33,208 nucleotides of DNA from contig JAFIGC010000050.1 in NCBI GenBank assembly GCA_020831635.1, positions 1-33,208 on the forward strand. Reading direction: 5' to 3'. The position numbers were made by a program, and so were the translations under genes. The notes under the pieces are model-generated. The model worked only from the letters and a program-made list of their open reading frames with translations, made no database searches and had not been told where the DNA came from. The first letter of the stretch is position 1. The number at the start of each line of letters is the position of its first letter. Positions 21,419-33,208 of this stretch are shown in pieces. Source of the stretch: Verrucomicrobiota bacterium (GTDB lineage Bacteria; Verrucomicrobiota; Kiritimatiellia; SS1-B-03-39; UBA6053).

Positions 21419-23190
21419 CATAGCCATGTTTTCCGACATGCCGGACTTCAACGACGCCAACAAACTCGGCTCCGGCAAGGAGATGGTGGACCGGCTCACC
21501 AACCTCATCGCCATCTTTGAGCGTCCCGCCCTGGATTTTTCCTCCAACCGCGCCGACGGCGATGACATTCTTGGCGACGCCTACGAATACCTCATGCGCC
21601 ACTTCGCCACCGAAAGCGGCAAAAGCAAGGGACAGTTCTACACCCCGGCGGAGGTGAGCCGCATCATGGCGCAAATCCTCGGCATCTCCGAAGCCAAAAC
21701 CGGCGCTTCCACCACCGTGTACGACCCCACCTGCGGCTCCGGCTCGCTGCTGCTCAAGGTCGGCGACATGGCCGGCACCGCCGTGTCGCTCTATGGTCAG
21801 GAAAAAGACTCCGCCACCGCCGGACTGGCCCGCATGAACATGATTTTGCACGACTAGCCCACCGCCGAAATTGAACGCGGCAACACCCTCGCCGATCCCA
21901 AATTCCGCGAGGGGGATCAGCTCAAAACCTTCGACTTCGTGGTCGCCAATCCGCCCTTCAGCGACAAACGCTGGAGCACCGGCTTCGATCCCGAACACGA
22001 CACCTGGACCCGCTTTCAGTCCTTCGGCGTTCCGCCCGCCAAACAGGGCGACTACGCCTACCTGCTCCACATCGTGCGCTCCCTCAAACCCAAGGGCAAA
22101 GGTGCCTGCATTCTCCCGCACGGAGTCCTCTTCCGCGGCAATGCCGAAGCCGAAATCCGCAAAAACCTGCTGCGCAAAGGCTATCTCGCGGGCATCATCG
22201 GCCTGCCGCCCAACCTCTTTTACGGCACCGGCATTCCCGCCTGTATCCTCATGCTCGACAAAGAGAACGCCCCCGCCCGCAAAGGCGTGTTCATGGTCGA
22301 CGCCAGCGAGGGCTACGCCAAGGACGGCCCCAAGAACCGCCTCCGCAGCCGCGACATTCACCAGATCGTCGACACCTTCCTGCAAGGCCGCGACCTCCCC
22401 GGCTATTCCCGCTGGGTGCCGCTGGAGGAAATCGCCAAAAACGACTACAACCTCAACCTGCCCCGCTATATCGACAGCCGCAAAACCGAGGACGTGCAGG
22501 ATCTCGCCGCCCACCTCAACGGCGGCATCCCCCTGCGCGACGTGGAAAGTCTGTCGGAATACTGGCAGGTCTGCCCCGGACTGCGCAAAGCCCTCTTTGC
22601 GAACTTGCGCGAAGGCTATGTGTCCCTCACGTTGGCACCCAACGACATCCGCGCCGCGATTTTCGAGCATCCCGAGTTTTTCCGACTCTCGGAAGACCTG
22701 CGCGGACTCTTTTCCGAGTTTCGGAAAAGCACCGTACCCAAGCTGAAAGCCCTGGACGCGGGGTGTCAGCCCAAGGACGTGATCCGCGAGCTGTCGGAAT
22801 CCCTGCTGGCCCATTACCGGGACCGTCCCTTGCTCGACCCCTACGCCGTGTATCAGCACATCATGGACTACTGGGACGAAACCCTGCAGGACGACCTCTA
22901 CCAAATCGCCGCCGAAGGCTGGAAAGCCGAAACCAGCCGCATCCTTGAAACCACGAAAACCGGCAAAAGCAAAGACAAAGGCTGGATCTGCGACCTCGTG
23001 CCCAAAACCCTGGTGGTGAACCGCTACTTTGCCGAACAACAGCAGGCCCTGAACGAACTGGAAAGCGAACTCGAAACCGCCACCGCCGCCCTCACCGAAC
23101 TGGAAGAGGAAGAGGGCGGGGACGAAGGCGCCTTCGCCGAACTCGACAAGATCAACGCCGCCCAGGTGAAAGCGCGGCTCAAAGAGCTAC

Positions 23191-23243
23191 CCGCTCCGAC
23201 CGATCAGTCGGATCCGTCTGATCAGACGGATCGGTCGGAGCGG
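23191..23243. repeat. GATC-rich palindromic insertion in hsdM, copy 1
   Basis: Arms CCGCTCCGACCGATC (23191-23205) and GATCGGTCGGAGCGG (23229-23243) enclose a perfect 22-bp palindrome at 23211-23232 centred on TGATCA. It is read in frame as TDQSDPSDQTDRSERTE, a low-complexity peptide unlike the rest of HsdM. Confidence 0.7.
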
Positions 23244-23600
23244 ACCGAGCACGAGGCCCTGGATCGCTGGCTGGAGCTGAACGCGCAACAGAGCCAAGCC
23301 AAGGCGGCCATCAAAGCGGCGGAGGCCGAACTTGACAAACGCGCCTACAAGCACTACCCCAAGCTCAACCGCGACGAGGTGCAAACCCTGGTGGTGGAAG
23401 ACAAATGGATGGGGGCCCTCGAAACCGCCCTGCAATCCGAAACCGACCGCATCAGCCAAAGCCTCACCCGCCGCGTCAAAGAACTCGCCGACCGCTACGC
23501 CGACCCGCTCCCCCGCCTCACCCAACAGGTGGCCGACCTCGAAACCCGCGTCGCCCGACACCTCACCCGCATGGGCATTCCCGCGCCGAACACCACGGCT

Positions 23601-23640
23601 GATCGGTCGGATCAGTCTGATCCGACGGATCGGACGGAGC
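23601..23640. repeat. GATC-rich repeat insertion in hsdM, copy 2
   Basis: A second stretch of GATCxGTC-type units (GATCGGTCGGATCAGTCTGA and on), read in frame as DRSDQSDPTDRTEPT, shortly before the hsdM stop. It is clearly the same repeat family as 23191-23243. Confidence 0.65.
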
Positions 23641-23756
23641 CGACGACTCCCGCCTCCACCTTCCGGAGGGCCACCCAAGAGCTTGCAAGATGAACCAGAC
23701 ACATGTAGGGTTCTATTTGCATCGACATTTCTTGCAACCCTTGGCATAAATGCATC

Positions 23757-24743
23757 ATGGCAACCGCAACACAGATTAAAGAACTGCTGAAAACCCACGG
23801 CGAGGGGGATGACGAACGCTTTTACGCGATCGCCATGCAGGTGGCTGCCGCCGAAGCGCGTAAAGGGCACGAACTTTTGGCGAAGGATCTTCGCCGTCTG
23901 GTTGAAAAAGCCCGTATGCGCAAAAATGAGGGCGGCATGGATGCCCGGATCGTGCATTTGGCGAGGCCCACCGGGGAAGCCGCCGAATTGTTGGAAGAGG
24001 TTGAAGACCCGCGCCGTTTGAAGGATGTGGTCATGGATGGCGCGCTGGCGGAACGGATGCAACGCATTCTCAGCGAACAAAAGCATATGGACCGGATTCG
24101 CGCGGCGGGTTTGACGCCACGGAACCGCCTGCTGTTTACCGGCCCCCCGGGGTGCGGAAAGACCTTGACCGCCAGTGCGCTTGCGAATGAAATCGGGGTG
24201 CCCCTGCTGGTGGTGCGGCTGGATTCACTGATCACAAGATACCTGGGCGAATCCCTCTCCAAACTGCGACTGATCTTCGACACCATCAACCGCACACGGG
24301 CCGTGTACCTGTTTGATGAATTCGACAGTATCGGCTACATGCGCGAGGCCACAAACGACGTGGGCGAAATGCGGCGCGTATTGAACGGCTTTCTGATGAA
24401 TATTGAAAAACTGCGAAGCGAAAGCCTGATCATCGCCGCCACGAATTTCGCGGGAAAACTGGACCGGGCCCTGTTTCGGCGTTTTGACGATGTGGTGGAG
24501 TTTGGACTGCCGGGCGAGGAAGAGGCTTGGGCCACTATTCGCCAACTGCTCTCCGGTGTGAAAACCGGCAAACTCTCCAAGGGCGAGCTTTGCGAGGCCG
24601 CCAAAGGCCTCAGTTATGGCGAGATCACCCGTGCGTGCGAGGAAACCATCAAAGAAATGATCATCACCCATACCGACAAAATTACCAACGGCATGTTGCT
24701 CAACGCCCTCACGGAGCGGCGCTTGTTCACCAGGCACTCATAA
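23757..24743 (+). CDS. ietA: AAA+ ATPase of an IetAS-type defence pair
   Basis: A 328-residue AAA+ ATPase. The helical N-terminus (~110 residues) is followed by Walker A GPPGCGKT (residues 129-136), VVRLDSLITRYLGESLSKLR (pore-loop region and following helix), Walker B AVYLFDEFD (D187, E188), sensor-1 IIAATNF, and Arg finger RALFRRFDDVVEF. It is followed 15 bp later by a subtilisin-like protease. An AAA+ ATPase directly before an S8 protease is the gene order of IetAS, reported as an antiphage system (established knowledge; the assignment here rests on gene order and domains). The ATPase probably controls or feeds the protease. It lies between hsdM and hsdS, which is unusual. The start ATG 23757 has no strong ribosome binding site. 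Confidence 0.85.
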   Translation: MATATQIKELLKTHGEGDDERFYAIAMQVAAAEARKGHELLAKDLRRLVEKARMRKNEGGMDARIVHLARPTGEAAELLEEVEDPRRLKDVVMDGALAERMQRILSEQKHMDRIRAAGLTPRNRLLFTGPPGCGKTLTASALANEIGVPLLVVRLDSLITRYLGESLSKLRLIFDTINRTRAVYLFDEFDSIGYMREATNDVGEMRRVLNGFLMNIEKLRSESLIIAATNFAGKLDRALFRRFDDVVEFGLPGEEEAWATIRQLLSGVKTGKLSKGELCEAAKGLSYGEITRACEETIKEMIITHTDKITNGMLLNALTERRLFTRHS

Positions 24744-24758
24744 AGAAGGGCGGGAAGT

Positions 24759-27299
24759 TTGGCGGAATATCCACATCAGCACCTGAAAATCCGCCCCAAG
24801 GTCAAACGCCTGCCTTTCAGAGGGGATGGACGCGGTAATTTTAGAATTTTCCCCCGTACCCGTGAACAACACGCGGCCAGGCTGCTTCGCCAGATGGAGG
24901 ATTTGCAAAATCAATTTGAAGCGGAAAAACAGCAACGGGAGGATTTGGAGGAGGATTCACGCTTTGGACTTCTGTTGGAAGTGGAGTCTGAACCGGGCTA
25001 TTCGCTGAGCTTCACATCGTTGACGCAAGGAAAATCCAAGCAAAAAGACGGAATTTACCTGCTCAATGTCCGGAAGTGGGGCGAAGGTGCGCAAGAGGTT
25101 ACCAAGGCCACCATTCTTGTGCCGTATGGACGGTTGGATGTACTCGAAAACAAGGTGCGAGCCTTTGCCGATCCAGACAAAGACAGTGTGAGGGAGGATG
25201 GCACCCGAACCCCGAAAAACGCAAAACTGCTCTCAAATATCCGCAGCATTCGCGTCGCCGCGTTGGAGGCTTTGTGGACGGAGCCGAGTCCTTTGCCTCC
25301 GCCGGGTGAGTTGCGGAACTGGGAATTGTGGATTTCGCGGGAGCCCCGCTCGGATGAAGCGCCAAGCTTCGAGGCGCAATTCAACCGCGCCGCGTCCGGA
25401 ATCGGATTGACGGTGAATGCGCAGCGGCTGAAACTTCCCGATCACATCGTAGTGACCCTGCGGGCGAAAAGGGAAGACCTCGAGGGGTCGCTTGACCTGC
25501 TGAATACCCTGACGGAAATCCGGCTGGTTAGCCCCTGCGCCGTGGATTTGACGGATCTTGCGGGTATGGAACAACACGAATGGATTCAGGAGGCCCTGGA
25601 GCGCATTCAGGCCCCGGGACCGGATGCCCCTGCGGTTTGCCTTCTGGACACAGGCGTCAACCGGGCGCATCCTCTTTTGGCCCCTTTGCTGGATGCAAGC
25701 GACGTGCAAACCCTGCTTCCCGATACGGGCGCGGACCGAAATGGGCACGGCACCGGCATGGCGGGCCTTGCCGCATATGACGACCTCAGAGGTCTGATGC
25801 TCTCAACCGGAACCTGGATCCAGGAGCATCGCCTTGAATCCGTGAAAATGATCAACCACGGGGATGAACACGATCCACCCTCTTACGGCGCGGTGACGCA
25901 AAGTGCCGCACTCATGGCGGAAACTAACCAACCGAATCGCCAAAGGACCTTTTGCATGGCCATGACGCAACCGGGACCTTCCGACAAAGGGCAGCCCAGT
26001 TCCTGGTCGGCAGCGGTCGACAGTTTGACCGCCGGGTCGGAAGAAGAGGGCGAACCCAAACGGGTGATGCTGATTTCCGCCGGGAATATCCGGAAATTTG
26101 AAGGATACAGCTATCCGGACGGAAATCATCGACACCGCATAGAAAATCCCGCCCAGGCATGGAATGCCGTATGCGTGGGTGCCTATACCCGGCGAACCCG
26201 GATCTTGGAGGAGGACGACGAGTCCACCCATGGCCGGGCCCTTGCGGGTAAGGGACAACTTTCGCCTTTTTCCCGCACCAGCCGGGATTGGGAACCCCAC
26301 TGGCCCATCAAACCGGACTTGGTGATGGAAGGAGGGAACGTGGGCATTCACGAAGACAGCCATTTGTTTGAGCGCAACAGCCTGGAGCCTGTAACCACGG
26401 AAGCCCGCTTTCAACTCGGGCGACCACTCAGAGCGTTCAACGCCACCAGTGCCGCCACCGCATCGGCCTCCCGGCTCATGGCCATCCTGCAGGCCCGATA
26501 TCCGGATTTGCGACCGGAAACCCACAGGGGATTGTTGGTGCACAGCGCCCGTTGGACGACCGGCATGTTGGGCGGTATCCGCCCGCATGAATCGGGGCAA
26601 ACGCGATCTGTACAGAATCTGATGCGGGAAGTGGGTTTTGGCACGCCGGATATCCCCCGACTCCTCGGAAGCGGAAGCCAGGGAGTGACCATGATCCTTG
26701 AGGATGAAATCCAGCCCTATGATCCAAGCTCGGATGCGGGAAGCGCCAGGCTAGGCAATTTCAACCTGTACGATTTGCCATGGCCGAAAGAACTTATGGA
26801 TAATCATCCCGATGTGACCCTGACCCTGAGGGCGACCTTGTCTACGTATGTCCATCCCAACCCCGGGTCCAGATGCTGGGAGAAAAACCAAAAATACAAA
26901 TACGCCAGCCATTTGCTGAGATTCGAGTTCAAGCGTCACACGGAATCGGAAAGAGCCTTTGAACGGAAATTGAAAAAACTAACAGAGGATGAAGAAAACG
27001 AGGAAACGGCTCCCTCCGATCCAAAGTGGGCTGTTGGCCCAAAACTCAGGGGCAAAGCCGGTTCACTGGTTCAGGATATCTGGCAGGGAAGTGCCGCAGA
27101 CCTTCGGGAAATGGGGCAGCTCGCGGTTTTCCCTGTAAAAGGCTGGTTCGCCACCCGGAAATTTCAGGAGGACCATGAATTCCACAACTGCCATCATCGG
27201 CCCGTTCCATTCAGCTTGGTCATCAGCCTCGATGCGGAACAGGAAATCGGGCTCTACAACGCGGTTGACAATCTGATAGATGTGGAGGCAAACGCGTGA
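24759..27299 (+). CDS. ietS: Subtilisin-like (S8) serine protease of an IetAS-type defence pair
   Basis: An 846-residue protein with no signal peptide. A coiled-coil stretch (about 45-70) and an unassigned N-terminal half come first, then the S8 catalytic residues: D297 in VCLLDTGVNRAH, H330 in NGHGTGMAGLA, the oxyanion Asn in LISAGN, and S564 in NATSAATAS (GTS is changed to ATS, Ser kept). The C-terminal ~200 residues are unassigned. The start is TTG at 24759, with GAAGGG about 8 bases upstream. It follows the AAA+ ATPase gene by 15 bp, the IetAS arrangement. Its stop overlaps the hsdS start by 4 bp (GTGA), so the two are translationally coupled. The likely action is proteolysis of a host or phage protein after infection; the target is unknown. 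Confidence 0.87.
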   Translation: MAEYPHQHLKIRPKVKRLPFRGDGRGNFRIFPRTREQHAARLLRQMEDLQNQFEAEKQQREDLEEDSRFGLLLEVESEPGYSLSFTSLTQGKSKQKDGIYLLNVRKWGEGAQEVTKATILVPYGRLDVLENKVRAFADPDKDSVREDGTRTPKNAKLLSNIRSIRVAALEALWTEPSPLPPPGELRNWELWISREPRSDEAPSFEAQFNRAASGIGLTVNAQRLKLPDHIVVTLRAKREDLEGSLDLLNTLTEIRLVSPCAVDLTDLAGMEQHEWIQEALERIQAPGPDAPAVCLLDTGVNRAHPLLAPLLDASDVQTLLPDTGADRNGHGTGMAGLAAYDDLRGLMLSTGTWIQEHRLESVKMINHGDEHDPPSYGAVTQSAALMAETNQPNRQRTFCMAMTQPGPSDKGQPSSWSAAVDSLTAGSEEEGEPKRVMLISAGNIRKFEGYSYPDGNHRHRIENPAQAWNAVCVGAYTRRTRILEEDDESTHGRALAGKGQLSPFSRTSRDWEPHWPIKPDLVMEGGNVGIHEDSHLFERNSLEPVTTEARFQLGRPLRAFNATSAATASASRLMAILQARYPDLRPETHRGLLVHSARWTTGMLGGIRPHESGQTRSVQNLMREVGFGTPDIPRLLGSGSQGVTMILEDEIQPYDPSSDAGSARLGNFNLYDLPWPKELMDNHPDVTLTLRATLSTYVHPNPGSRCWEKNQKYKYASHLLRFEFKRHTESERAFERKLKKLTEDEENEETAPSDPKWAVGPKLRGKAGSLVQDIWQGSAADLREMGQLAVFPVKGWFATRKFQEDHEFHNCHHRPVPFSLVISLDAEQEIGLYNAVDNLIDVEANA

Positions 27300-28654
27300 T
27301 GATGAAAGATAACGTGCCCAACGGCTACAAACAAACCGAAGTCGGGGTGATTCCGGAGGATTGGGAGGTGACACGACTAGGGGAGGTATCCACATTTTTA
27401 TCTGGTGGAACACCTTCGAGAAGCAATGCGAGTTTTTGGGCTGGGAACATCCCTTGGATAAGTGCCACGAGCTTACGCCGGTTTTTCATTTTCACATCGG
27501 ATAGCAATGTCACGAAAGAAGCCGTTGAAAAGGGAAGTAAGATAGCACCAATTGGGTCTACATTACTTCTTGTTCGGGGAAGTGCTCTGCATAAAGAAAT
27601 TCTATCTGGACTGGTTACAGGTACAGTTTGCTTTAATCAGGATGTCAAAGCTCTCGTTCCTTGTTCAAAGATACTTCCAAAATATTTGACCTACATAACA
27701 CGAGGAAAAGCAAACGATTTGCTAAGGTTAGTGTCTTCTGCCGGTAATACAGCAGGTGTGCTTGATACAAAACTACTTAAGAAATTCAGGTTCCCCCTCC
27801 CTCCCACCAAAAACGAGCAGGAGGCGATTGCGGAGGCCTTGGGGGATGCGGATGCGTGGATTGAATCCCTGGAAAAACTCATCAACAAAAAACGCCTGAT
27901 CAAACAAGGCGCCATGCAGGAACTCCTCACCGCCAAACGCCGCCTCCCCGGGTTTGAGGAGGAGTGGGGGGAGAAGAGGTTGGGGGATTGCCTCGAACAA
28001 AATCCCAGCTATGGAATAAATGCGCCTGCTGTGCCTTATCATGGAAATCTCCCAAAATATTTACGGATCACCGACATTACAGAAGATGGCCGATTTAAGC
28101 CAGATCCTCTTGTTGCAGTTGATTCCAAGATGGCCAGTCGATATTTCCTCCAGAAAGGTGATGTTGTTTTTGCCAGAACGGGTGCAAGCGTTGGGAAATC
28201 CTACCGTTATCGACCAGAAGATGGTATGCTCGTGTTTGCAGGATTTTTGATAAGAATTCAAACCAATCAAACCATGCTGGATTCCAGCTATTTTTCACTT
28301 TGGGCTCATTCGGAAATGTATTGGAAATGGGTCAAAATTATGTCTATGCGAAGCGGTCAGCCTGGAATCAATGGAAAAGAATTTTCAGAATTAATCCTTC
28401 GTGTACCGCCAATTGAAGAACAAACCGCAATCGCCGAAGTCCTCTCCGACATGGATGCGGAGATTGAGGCCCTTGAGGCGAAGCTGGAGAAAGCGCGGCG
28501 GATCAAGGAGGGAATGATGGCGGAGTTGTTGACAGGGAAAACGCGGCTGGTATCGTCCGATCTGATCCCTTTCCGATATACGCAAGAAGAACCTGAACTT
28601 TTGATGGTGGCGGAGACTTTTGATTCAGGAGAAACCAACACATCTGGTGTTTGA
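27296..28654 (+). CDS. hsdS: Type I restriction-modification specificity subunit
   Basis: A 452-residue HsdS, which recognises a split DNA target with two target recognition domains (TRDs). TRD1 spans about residues 20-165 (VIPEDWEVTRLGEVSTFLSG at its start), followed by conserved helix 1 (PLPPTKNEQEAIAEALGDAD). TRD2 starts at about 225 (EEWGEKRLGDCLEQ), followed by conserved helix 2 (PPIEEQTAIAEVLSDMDAEI). Base composition shifts: both TRDs are AT-rich, the helices GC-rich, so TRDs have probably been exchanged by transfer. The gene overlaps ietS by 4 bp; possible starts are GTG 27296, ATG 27299 or 27302. It is separated from hsdM by ietA and ietS. About 30 residues after the second helix are unassigned. 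Confidence 0.92.
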   Translation: MMMKDNVPNGYKQTEVGVIPEDWEVTRLGEVSTFLSGGTPSRSNASFWAGNIPWISATSLRRFFIFTSDSNVTKEAVEKGSKIAPIGSTLLLVRGSALHKEILSGLVTGTVCFNQDVKALVPCSKILPKYLTYITRGKANDLLRLVSSAGNTAGVLDTKLLKKFRFPLPPTKNEQEAIAEALGDADAWIESLEKLINKKRLIKQGAMQELLTAKRRLPGFEEEWGEKRLGDCLEQNPSYGINAPAVPYHGNLPKYLRITDITEDGRFKPDPLVAVDSKMASRYFLQKGDVVFARTGASVGKSYRYRPEDGMLVFAGFLIRIQTNQTMLDSSYFSLWAHSEMYWKWVKIMSMRSGQPGINGKEFSELILRVPPIEEQTAIAEVLSDMDAEIEALEAKLEKARRIKEGMMAELLTGKTRLVSSDLIPFRYTQEEPELLMVAETFDSGETNTSGV

Positions 28655-28678
28655 AACTTAAAACCTTATGGAAAATAT

Positions 28679-30541
28679 ATGAGCACATTTGACAGTACAA
28701 AATCATCGTTGAGTTCGATTCTAAAAGAAATTTGTGAAGGAAAGGTGCAGTTGCCTGACTTTCAGCGGGGATGGGTTTGGGATGACGACCACATTCGGGA
28801 TTTGCTGGTTAGTATTGCTCGCTCTTTCCCCGTTGGTGCAGTGATGATGCTGGAAACCGGAGGAAATGTGAAATTTCAGACCCGCCCTGTTGAGGGACTC
28901 GAAAACAAAATTAACAAAGAGATGAAACCAGAGAAGCTGATCCTGGATGGGCAACAACGGCTGACTACTTTGACACAAGCGTTGGCCCTGACTACCCCAG
29001 TGAATACCCGCACCAGCAAAGGGAAGAAAATCAAACGGCATTACTATTTTGATATTCGTCAAGCATTGGCCAACCCGCACGATCTTGAAAGTGCGATTAT
29101 TGCTGTGGATGAAAATCGACAGCTACGTACAAATTTCGGTCGTGATGTGGAACTTGATTTATCAAATCGAGAGCTTGAGTGCGAAAAAATGATGTTCCCT
29201 TGTGATCAAATAATGGATTCTGACGCATGGGAGGAAACTTTACATCAAGTGGCTCCTGAAAATTTCAGTGATTATATGGGTTTTCGAAGCGGAATTCTTA
29301 AGTCGTTCCGTGAATACCAAATTCCCGTAATCCAACTTCAAAAGGAAACGAGTAAAGAGGCTGTATGTCTGGTGTTTGAGAAAGTCAATACAGGTGGAGT
29401 GCAGTTATCTGTATTCGAGTTAATCACGGCCAGTTATGCGGCAGACGGTTACAATCTACGTGACGATTGGTTTGGATCAACCATTCGAAAAGTGGACTCC
29501 CGCCAGAAGCGGCTCGCTAAAGACAATTTGTTAGCCTCGATTGAAGCCCCTGAATTTTTGCAGGCGATCACTTTGTTGCATACCCATGAAAGAAAATCTT
29601 CTGACATACAAAATGGTAAAACCGGAAAACAAATTCGACCTATCAGCGCCAAACGGGCGGATGTTTTGGAGCTACCTTTAGACTCTTGGAAAAAGTGGGC
29701 TGATCAAGTGGAGAAGGGCTTTAAATTGGCAGGTCGTTTTTTGAGAAAAGAAGCTTTCCATGCCAGGAAGGAGCTTCCATATCGTACACAGATCGTTCCT
29801 TTGGCAGCCGTTATGACTCGCATCGGAGATAAATGGCTTGAACCCAAGATTTACGAAAAACTGGCAAGATGGTTTTGGTGCGGGGTCCTCGGCGAGCTGT
29901 ATGGCGGTGCTGTTGAAACTCGCATTGCCTTGGATTATGAGCAGTTGTTATTGTGGTTCGAGAGCGATGATGAACTGCCTCGAACAATTTTTGATGCTAG
30001 TTTCCAGTCTGATCGATTCAGCACGCTGCGTTCCCGCCTTAGTGCTGCATACAAAGGTATCAATGTGCTTGTGTTACGTGAAGGCGCGCAGGACTGGTTT
30101 TGGAAAGCGGGCATCCAAGAGCTTGATCTTGATGAAGTCGCACTCGATATCCATCACATTTTTCCGAAGTCGTGGTGTGAGAGCCATGATCCGAAAATTC
30201 CCAGAGCGAAATACGACAGTATCTTAAACAAGACCCCACTCTCTTACAAAGCGAACCGGAAAATTAGCGGAGACGCTCCATCCAAGTATCTTGATCGTAT
30301 ACAGGCAGAAAAACATGTTCAGTTGAGCAATCAGGAAATGGATGAACTTTTGGAGAGTCACGCCTTAAATCCCAGCCTGCTTAGGTGCGATGACTTTGAT
30401 AGGTTTGTCCAAGACAGACGTCAGCGGTTGGCAAAATTGGTGGAAACTGCAATGGGTAAATCCGTAAGTATGGTTCCTGACTCCAATGAATATGAAGATG
30501 AGCCTGATGATACCGAAGACGAGGGTGAAACGACAATCTGA
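28679..30541 (+). CDS. DUF262 and HNH-domain protein (GmrSD-like)
   Basis: A 620-residue protein. The N-terminal DUF262 domain (ParB/Srx-like fold) has QLPDFQRGWVWDDDHIRDLL and the conserved LILDGQQRLTTL (DGQQR at 90-94), a nucleotide-binding motif. The C-terminal part has an HNH-type nuclease signature: LDIHHIFPK (H492, H493), then ILNKTPLSYKANRKISG. This is the layout of GmrSD-type modification-dependent restriction proteins in single-chain form and of related defence proteins. The tail is acidic (YEDEPDDTEDEGE). It is 24 bp after hsdS on the same strand, in the place where hsdR might be expected. Base composition is more AT-rich than the surrounding genes, a sign of transfer. Whether it works alone or with the neighbours is unknown. 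Confidence 0.88.
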   Translation: MSTFDSTKSSLSSILKEICEGKVQLPDFQRGWVWDDDHIRDLLVSIARSFPVGAVMMLETGGNVKFQTRPVEGLENKINKEMKPEKLILDGQQRLTTLTQALALTTPVNTRTSKGKKIKRHYYFDIRQALANPHDLESAIIAVDENRQLRTNFGRDVELDLSNRELECEKMMFPCDQIMDSDAWEETLHQVAPENFSDYMGFRSGILKSFREYQIPVIQLQKETSKEAVCLVFEKVNTGGVQLSVFELITASYAADGYNLRDDWFGSTIRKVDSRQKRLAKDNLLASIEAPEFLQAITLLHTHERKSSDIQNGKTGKQIRPISAKRADVLELPLDSWKKWADQVEKGFKLAGRFLRKEAFHARKELPYRTQIVPLAAVMTRIGDKWLEPKIYEKLARWFWCGVLGELYGGAVETRIALDYEQLLLWFESDDELPRTIFDASFQSDRFSTLRSRLSAAYKGINVLVLREGAQDWFWKAGIQELDLDEVALDIHHIFPKSWCESHDPKIPRAKYDSILNKTPLSYKANRKISGDAPSKYLDRIQAEKHVQLSNQEMDELLESHALNPSLLRCDDFDRFVQDRRQRLAKLVETAMGKSVSMVPDSNEYEDEPDDTEDEGETTI

Positions 30542-31146: not shown

Positions 31147-31484
31147 GCAGATTCAAATGCCTCCTTTTGTCGCGTAGCGACTGGCCCACGCGTAGCCGTG
31201 GATTTCAATCCACGGTTTCAATCCAACATTTGCCAGCCCGTCGCGTAGCGACGATTCACGGACCTGGGGATTTCAATCCCATCATCCCGAAATACCCTGC
31301 AACGCACACGCCCGTGACAACGATGGGGTTGAAACCCCCAGGTCCGTCAGGCGACGCTACGCGGCGCACGAATCCTGTTGCTCAGGGTTCCGTGGATTGA
31401 AATCCACGGCTACGCGTGGGCCTGTCGCTACGCGACACAAAAATATTGCCCCGACAAATTCTGTTGAAACGCATTTGAATCTGC
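31147..31484. repeat. Large nested inverted repeat
   Basis: Three nested pairs share one centre. The outer arms are 31147-31160 GCAGATTCAAATGC with its exact complement at 31471-31484. The main arms are 31169-31215 and 31390-31436, 47 bp each with 46 matching positions. The inner arms are 31258-31283 and 31322-31347, 26 bp with 24 matching. Parts such as GTCGCGTAGCGAC and CCGTGGATTTCAATCCACGG are themselves palindromic. No coding sequence is present. It is not a CRISPR array: there are no evenly spaced direct repeats. Confidence 0.8.
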
Positions 31485-31615: not shown

Positions 31616-32146
31616 ATGAAATTAAAGGGTCAGGACGTTTTGTTGGTGCTCAAACTACTCTCAGACGGGGGCAGGAAGGGGACCTTTGCGGCGTTGGCGG
31701 AGGCGCTGGGGATTAGTGCTTCGGAGGCGCATGCGGCTCTGGGTCGGGCCCGGGAGGCTGGTTTGGTGCATCCGCTGGAGGATCGGGCGATCAAGGCTTC
31801 GGTGGCGGAATTTTTGTTGCACGCGATCAAATATGCGTTTCCGGTGAAACCCGGCGGCGCGACCCGGGGGATGCCCACGGGCTTTGCGGCACCACCGCTG
31901 AACCACAATTTTCGTTCCGAGGTTCGCGAGGGCTTTATCTGGGTATGGCCGGATCCGGAAGGAAATCAGGGCGGGTTGGAAATCAAGCCCCTTTGTAGGT
32001 CCGTTCCGGCGGCGGCCCGGCGGGACGCGTCCCTGTATGAGTGGCTGGTGTTGGCGGATGTGCTGCGCGGTGCGGGTCGGGCGAGAGAACGGGAGCTTGC
32101 CGCCTCGGTGGTGAAAGAAAGGTTGGGCGGCCATGCGGACAGTTGA
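31616..32146 (+). CDS. HTH-domain protein, possible antitoxin partner of the nucleotidyltransferase
   Basis: A 176-residue protein. The N-terminal ~60 residues form a winged-helix-like HTH (FAALAEALGISASEAHAALG, then AREAGLVHPL). The rest (KYAFPVKPGGATRGMPTGFA; EIKPLCRSVPAAARRDASLY) is a domain I have seen next to nucleotidyltransferase genes but cannot name. The C-terminus overlaps the start of the downstream gene by 14 bp, showing tight coupling. A palindrome ends 3 bp before the ATG, so there is no room for a ribosome binding site. Together with the next gene this looks like an AbiE-type toxin-antitoxin arrangement in which the HTH protein represses its own promoter (inference). Confidence 0.7.
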   Translation: MKLKGQDVLLVLKLLSDGGRKGTFAALAEALGISASEAHAALGRAREAGLVHPLEDRAIKASVAEFLLHAIKYAFPVKPGGATRGMPTGFAAPPLNHNFRSEVREGFIWVWPDPEGNQGGLEIKPLCRSVPAAARRDASLYEWLVLADVLRGAGRARERELAASVVKERLGGHADS

Positions 32147-32819
32147 TCTGGAGGCCTTGAAAAGCGTGGCCGCCCAGTTGGACAAACTGGAACGACCCTA
32201 TGCGTTCACCGGCGGAATCGTGGTGGGGTTTCTTCTGGATCATCCTGAGGTGGTGCATCTAAGGCCCACCGATGATTTGGATGCCATCACTTCCGTGACA
32301 AGTTATGCCCAGCAGAACCTGATGGAGGAGGAATTGAGGGGACTTCTTTTCATTCACGACACATCCGAGGGGGCCCCGTCATGCCGGTTTCTTTTTGAGG
32401 GAATCAAAGTGGACGTGATGCCAGCAAAGGACGAAACCGGTCAATTTAACAATCCATGGTTTGAGTCGGCTTTGGCGTCCGCTTCTCCCAGGAGCATGAA
32501 AGATGTGACCGTGAATACGGTGGATGCGCCTCATTTCATTGCCACCAAAATCGCCGCGTTCCTGGATCGCTCCAAAGGGGACCTTTACAGCCATGACTTG
32601 GAGGATATCATCACCGTGGTGGATGGCCGCAATCATCTTGTGGAGGAGATGGCGAACGCCCCTCCTTTTCTACGGCACTTTGTTGCGGATCAAATCAGGG
32701 TGTTGATGGGCAGTGAGGCCTTTCGTGACGCATTGCCGGGTCATTTGCCCGGAGACAGGGCCAGCCAGGGCAGGCTCCCAAAATTGATGGAATCTTTGCG
32801 GAAGATCGCGGCGTTGTGA
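32133..32819 (+). CDS. Nucleotidyltransferase-fold protein (AbiEii-like)
   Basis: A 228-residue protein with the nucleotidyltransferase core: AFTGGIVVGFLLDHP (G27, G28), then the metal site LRPTDDLDAIT (D48, D50), and a third acidic residue in FEGIKVDVMPA. C-terminal helices follow (APHFIATKIAAFLDR, KGDLYSHDLEDIITVVDGRN), as in the AbiEii/AbiGii toxin family and related minimal nucleotidyltransferases. It overlaps the HTH gene by 14 bp. Family members modify tRNA or proteins with nucleotides and are toxins in type IV-like systems; the target here is unknown. A weakly matching family member with another function (for example a simple resistance or housekeeping nucleotidyltransferase) is possible. 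Confidence 0.78.
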   Translation: MRTVDLEALKSVAAQLDKLERPYAFTGGIVVGFLLDHPEVVHLRPTDDLDAITSVTSYAQQNLMEEELRGLLFIHDTSEGAPSCRFLFEGIKVDVMPAKDETGQFNNPWFESALASASPRSMKDVTVNTVDAPHFIATKIAAFLDRSKGDLYSHDLEDIITVVDGRNHLVEEMANAPPFLRHFVADQIRVLMGSEAFRDALPGHLPGDRASQGRLPKLMESLRKIAAL

Positions 32820-33208
32820 CCTTCAGGATGCGTTTGGTATGGGGGTATAAACCACGGGTGTCTCACTGCGCTCGAAACCTACGGTAATGAAACTCTGCTG
32901 GGAAGACATGATGTCGGGTCGAAGGTCCGAGCCGATACCAGCCCCGTCCGTCTGCGGGCCAAGGGTCCGCGGACGGGCGGGGTCCCGGGTATGCCAGCCA
33001 AACGCGGGCTGTAAGTTCGCGCAAATCACCCGCGTGCCACGGCTTTGGTGATCTGCGCGGACCTTCGGCCCGCGTGGGGAGGGGGGGGGAATCGTGTACC
33101 CGGCCCGAAAACGGGCGTAAAGGGCCGTTTGGGGCCGGGGGGGGTTGGGGGCGGGCCGAGGGGCCGCAGTTAAGAAAGGGACATGGCACAGACACAGGGC
33201 CCCGCGGG
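32820..33208 (+). other. GC-rich region with RNA-like hairpins at the window end
   Basis: No convincing gene. Stems on the plus strand: CCCGTCCG / CGGACGGG (32943-32950 and 32970-32977), CGCGCAAATCACC / GGTGATCTGCGCG (33018-33030 and 33047-33059, one mismatch), and GGACC TTCG GCCC near 33059-33071 with a UUCG-type tetraloop. A stretch CGGTAATGAAACTCTGCTGG (32882-32901) resembles, from memory, the 5' region of bacterial group II introns. Long G-runs occur near 33076-33090 and 33138-33150. Overlapping reading frames look like chance frames of GC-rich sequence. Confidence 0.3.

Follow-up and report, generated by a model that had tools for sequence, protein, structure and literature searches.

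The window, which is the whole of a 33.2-kb contig (C118) from a draft genome of 6.0 Mb (308 contigs), carries an ietA-ietS pair and a DUF262/GmrSD-type gene within a type I restriction-modification operon whose methylase gene is broken. The explanation that we regard as probable is that a type I operon took up IetAS and GmrSD as mobile defence cargo and subsequently lost hsdM; its hsdR is likely located on a second contig, C262. The starting operon would have been of the cargo-bearing kind with PADLOC classes PDLC03027 (HsdM) and PDLC03044 (HsdR). The IetAS module would have inserted between hsdM and hsdS, a GmrSD-type nuclease (DUF262/HNH) would occupy the cargo slot after hsdS and before hsdR, and hsdM function would later have been lost when the 5' part was deleted and a nonsense codon arose.

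A preliminary description of this DNA had reported five genes in the order hsdM-ietA-ietS-hsdS-DUF262, on one strand and with short gaps. This layout is real, and the recomputed gaps are 63, 15, -4, and 24 bp. The last four genes are all intact and on the + strand; hsdM, which had been listed as a plain gene, proved to be a pseudogene.

The broken hsdM and its relatives

The hsdM pseudogene (21429–23693, + strand) consists of two pieces, at 21426–21857 and 21939–23693, that share one frame, are separated by an in-frame TAG (21855–21857), and both match N6_Mtase. At the position of the TAG, intact relatives encode N, Q, F, or Y. Compared with eight intact relatives (L101–L106, L110, and L113), the gene is missing its first ~94–108 codons, and the HsdM_N domain (PF12161) that is present in L101, L103, and L105 is absent; tblastn with full-length HsdMs returned no hsdM match before 21429 in the window. 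The natural stop has been lost as well, as the relatives stop at ~23580 and the window frame continues about 36 codons past this point, through a 9-bp repeat. The contig has a methylase core without the N-terminal domain that would accompany it in a functional type I enzyme, and no working HsdM can be made. Nor does the genome hold a close second HsdM copy to replace it. The damage looks recent, given how well the remainder of hsdM has been preserved. In a 308-contig draft the TAG might result from a base error, whereas the 5' deletion could not. The 9-bp-period GATC repeat is dispersed and forms an in-frame insertion in hsdM (23198–23245, + strand), with a second copy between the end of hsdM homology and ietA (23601–23645, + strand). 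Read in the hsdM frame, these repeats give peptides like DRSDQSDPTDRT, and many short ORFs of C262 encode similar repeat peptides.

Relatives of this HsdM sit in type I operons arranged hsdM-hsdS-[cargo]-hsdR. The hsdM gene overlaps hsdS by 4–10 bp in six of them (L102, L105, L108, L110, L111, and L113), overlap or close spacing being the pattern in cargo-free relatives, and some others have genes between hsdM and hsdS. The hsdR gene directly follows hsdS in L105 and L111, and in the other relatives where it was found the distance from hsdS to hsdR is 1.2–6.5 kb. DUF262/GmrSD genes are the hsdS-hsdR cargo in five relatives (L103, L107, L113, and, with two genes each, L102 and L114); in L103, opposite-strand genes separate GmrSD from hsdR. 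Another type I operon of the window's own genome (L080 on contig C213, 6045–12481) has a Schlafen/AlbA gene between hsdM and hsdS, and the same interval encodes a reverse transcriptase (RVT_1, 588 aa) and a family A DNA polymerase (539 aa).

The hsdS gene (27296–28654, + strand; 452 aa) encodes an intact type I specificity subunit with two Methylase_S stretches, corresponding to two recognition domains. The 4-bp overlap between ietS and hsdS that had been described stands if hsdS starts at a GTG; the next codon is an ATG, and a start there would leave only a 1-nt overlap (TGATG). A GGAGG ribosome site lies just upstream of the hsdS start, inside the end of ietS, and the overlap leaves room for co-regulation. 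The DUF262 gene that follows (28679–30541, + strand; 620 aa) lies in the slot between hsdS and hsdR that holds cargo in the relatives. Like the GmrSD/DUF262 nucleases, its product has a GmrSD_N domain (PF03235, E = 8e-33) with a DGQQR motif and an HNH-like motif near the C-terminus, HHIFPKSW, which is readable in the sequence; it differs from them in that GmrSD_C (PF07510) is unmatched and in being encoded inside a type I operon. Judging from this domain content, the protein would act alone as a DNA-cutting enzyme. It had been described as occupying the place of hsdR, and we considered and rejected it as a stand-in for that subunit: the five relatives with such a gene in this slot keep hsdR too, so the position is normal for this HsdM family and does not imply replacement.

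The ietA-ietS module

The two genes between hsdM and hsdS encode an AAA ATPase of the antitoxin-partner type (ietA, 23757–24743, + strand; 328 aa) and a subtilisin-like protease (ietS, 24759–27299, + strand; 846 aa). IetA keeps both its Walker A (GPPGCGKT) and Walker B (LFDEFD) motifs, IetS keeps the catalytic residues D297, H330, N443, and S564, and the pair, with a 15-bp gap between its genes, is recognized by the PADLOC models for IetA (E = 2e-70) and IetS (E = 2e-28). Both genes, their order and lengths, the Walker motifs, and the catalytic triad are shared with IetAS of Agrobacterium pTiC58 and of Salmonella SGI1 (S026-S025). The window pair differs in sitting between hsdM and hsdS and in its divergent IetS, for which the best PADLOC match has E = 2e-28 and which scores far under the cut-off of the NCBIfam IteS model. 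The SGI1 S025/S026 pair acts as a toxin (the protease) and an antitoxin (the AAA ATPase) (PMC5006074), as does an IetAS-homologous pair of Mycoplasma (PMC8562856); the evidence for IetS toxicity, its neutralization by IetA, and phage protection comes from these homologues. IetAS most likely acts alone in the window, with IetA restraining IetS, and infection or the loss of IetA would be the trigger that frees the protease to cleave cellular proteins and arrest the host.

The limits of DNA homology suggest that the module brought a control region of its own. The window copy and a stand-alone IetAS share 81% identity, and the upstream region is common to both; the homology to the stand-alone locus L040 is limited to 23713–27266, beginning 44 bp ahead of ietA and running to the end of ietS. 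The region just upstream of ietA (23713–23756, + strand) is conserved with the stand-alone IetAS of Kiritimatiellota bacterium B12222, the nearest IetA relative with a named organism, and is probably the module's own control region. A sigma-70 promoter scan gave 8 sites against 6.1 expected, none of them directly upstream of ietA. Additionally, IetAS apparently does not depend on a functional type I enzyme here, because its catalytic residues have been kept while hsdM is dead. One of the two readings offered in the preliminary description, an IetAS insertion followed by decay of the type I locus, fits the broken hsdM, the placement of the window IetA among stand-alone systems, and the extent of the homology, which takes in ~44 bp ahead of ietA and goes no further than the end of ietS.

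IetAS in type I operons across the phylum

To judge how often this arrangement occurs, we can draw on a survey of 43 IetA loci of the phylum, 39 of them with an IetS found. Most of the IetAS loci sampled are stand-alone. Same-strand hsd genes flank IetA on both sides within 9 kb in 8 of the 43 loci (the window, L070, L073, L074, L077, L151, L152, and L168), and on one side only in two more (L075 and L153). If 2% or 5% of a genome is assumed to lie in such operons, this corresponds to P = 2e-6 or 1e-3, respectively, values that are only a rough guide because defence genes cluster. Several loci have IetAS between hsdS and hsdR. The order is hsdM-hsdS-..-ietA-ietS-..-hsdR in L073, L077, and L151, ietA-ietS-hsdR in L075 and L070, and hsdR-ietA-ietS-hsdM/S in L168. 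Only one second case of ietA-ietS between hsdM and hsdS was found, in L152, and there a PIN-like gene precedes hsdS (hsdM-GmrSD-hsdM2-ietA-ietS-PIN-like-hsdS). In that operon (L152, 2–4028), a GmrSD gene lies between two hsdM genes, and hsdM2 is internally deleted, making it a second damaged hsdM beside IetAS. In L074, from contig C52 of the window's own genome (5507–8286), an IetA without IetS lies between hsdS and hsdR with AbiEi/AbiEii after it, as if the toxin half had been exchanged.

The captures of IetAS by type I operons were independent of one another, as the label embedded or stand-alone needs 8 changes on the IetA tree, at least 7 of which are forced by well-supported branches. The nearest relatives of the window IetA (L040, then L067, L068, L069, L154, and L155) have no flanking hsd genes, six plasmid IetAS loci that were inspected have no annotated hsd neighbours, and no IetA relative was found in viral contigs. 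Toxins and nucleases embedded in type I operons are already known. DarTG2, in the RptR/RRDM island, lies between hsdS and hsdR of a type I operon (PMC12255303), and is likewise a toxin-antitoxin pair between type I genes; the window differs in having a protease pair, in the slot between hsdM and hsdS, and a broken hsdM. The guilt-by-embedding preprint of Payne et al. 2024, as cited in PMC12255303 and PMC12988326, concerns defence genes inside other defence operons, and the embedded pair of the window differs from those candidates, as they are represented there, in being an already known system. Our literature search, which covered open-access papers, found none describing IetAS as repeated cargo in type I operons.

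A functional precedent would be PrrC, a host-killing gene embedded in the type I operon EcoprrI and a known guard (PMC3874165, PMC12707154). Embedded IetAS might similarly watch the restriction enzyme and free IetS when a phage inhibits it, with the window as a decayed example. The embedding that this calls for is seen in the window, L073, L077, L151, and L168, the position between hsd genes recurs in 8 of 43 IetA loci, and in L073, L075, and L070 IetAS is directly beside hsdR. We nevertheless think such a role unlikely, as IetAS can also function by itself and its loci are mostly stand-alone, the embedded copies are not one lineage, and ietA and ietS are intact in the window although hsdM is dead, which argues against dependence here. 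The window encodes a protease pair and not a tRNA nuclease, and its likeness to PrrC is one of gene position. It is equally doubtful that, in the operons with intact hsd genes (L073, L077, L151, and L168), IetAS is the protease counterpart of PrrC that kills on inhibition, of which the window would be a decayed copy. The repeated independent captures provide matched pairs, embedded versus stand-alone and intact versus broken hsd genes, that allow a direct test of the guard hypothesis, and the window is in effect a natural hsd knock-out in which IetAS has been kept intact.

A class-matched hsdR on a second contig

The statement in the preliminary description that hsdR is missing holds for this 33.2-kb contig, where tblastn with collected HsdRs detected neither the gene nor a remnant (one chance hit, E = 0.046), but not for the genome, which has a class-matched orphan on C262. 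The end of C118, 2667 bp beyond the DUF262 gene, falls in dispersed repeats (32914–33208) that have 15 to 31 matches in the genome, several of them located at contig ends. Among nine HSDR_N matches in the genome, the C262 gene (L120:4028–7216; PDLC03044, 1334 bits) is the sole class-matched hsdR found. Its product is 57–67% identical to HsdR partners of this HsdM family (L102, L103, L106, and L114), and none of the other HsdRs compared from the same genome is close to that partner group, the best match of the one in L124 being L070. C262 has no hsdM match, and its hsdR, at a distance of 4 kb from the contig start, is oriented as an extension of the window operon would be. Across 21 loci, the identity of HsdM to the window and that of HsdR to C262 rise together (Spearman 0.85); for the seven closest loci the correlation is 0.71 (p = 0.07). 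The ends of C118 and C262 show no exact overlap, other contig ends carry the same repeat, and the synteny that relatives show for the outer flanks of C118 and C262 is uninformative on the join. From the class match, position, and orientation, we infer that C118 continues into C262, and the cognate hsdR most likely still exists there, just past the contig end.

The other readings of the locus differ in what they make of hsdM and hsdR. It is somewhat unlikely that hsdR was truly lost, the C262 gene being unrelated, and that IetAS and GmrSD merely survive in a dying island; the hsdM damage and the absence of hsdR from the 2.7 kb after DUF262 would agree with this, but no other class-matched hsdR was found, the C262 gene is an orphan that lies close to a contig end and points the right way, and distances of 4 to 6.5 kb from hsdS to hsdR occur in relatives. 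At the other extreme, the operon could really be intact and the hsdM damage a misassembly or base-calling error, as might arise in a 308-contig draft with dispersed repeats. This is very unlikely, as the gene has three separate lesions (start, TAG, and stop), and the remnant begins just 3' of a terminator-like hairpin that trails the upstream gene, with no obvious repeat at this junction. We give slightly less credence still to the combined system of the preliminary description, in which HsdM and HsdS would provide self-recognition and the role of HsdR as effector would fall to IetAS or the DUF262 nuclease. The operon-like order with its overlaps and the second hsdM-ietA-ietS-hsdS order in L152 would favor it; however, it is left unsupported because no working HsdM is possible in the window and no close substitute exists in the genome, hsdM2 of L152 is internally deleted, and DUF262 genes coexist with hsdR in five relatives. 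Mobile cargo in an operon that lost hsdM and continues into C262 is the reading that we retain.

The remaining features lie around the presumed junction. A 276-bp MITE-like element (31165–31440), with 51-nt inverted ends that are 96% complementary, is located between the DUF262 gene and PDC-M21A, the first of an uncharacterised two-gene candidate defence pair (PDC-M21A/PDC-M21B, 31616–32819, + strand). The candidate names follow the guilt-by-embedding series, at least as that series is cited, and the pair adjoins the operon. A short repeat of about 40 bp, present at both contig ends (window 32914–33208 and L120:1–61), matches about 30 sites in the genome, several of which are contig ends, and is probably what breaks the assembly. 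On C262 (L120:2448–7932), AbiEi/AbiEii overlaps the start of the orphan hsdR, and a YgjP-like metallopeptidase gene then follows.
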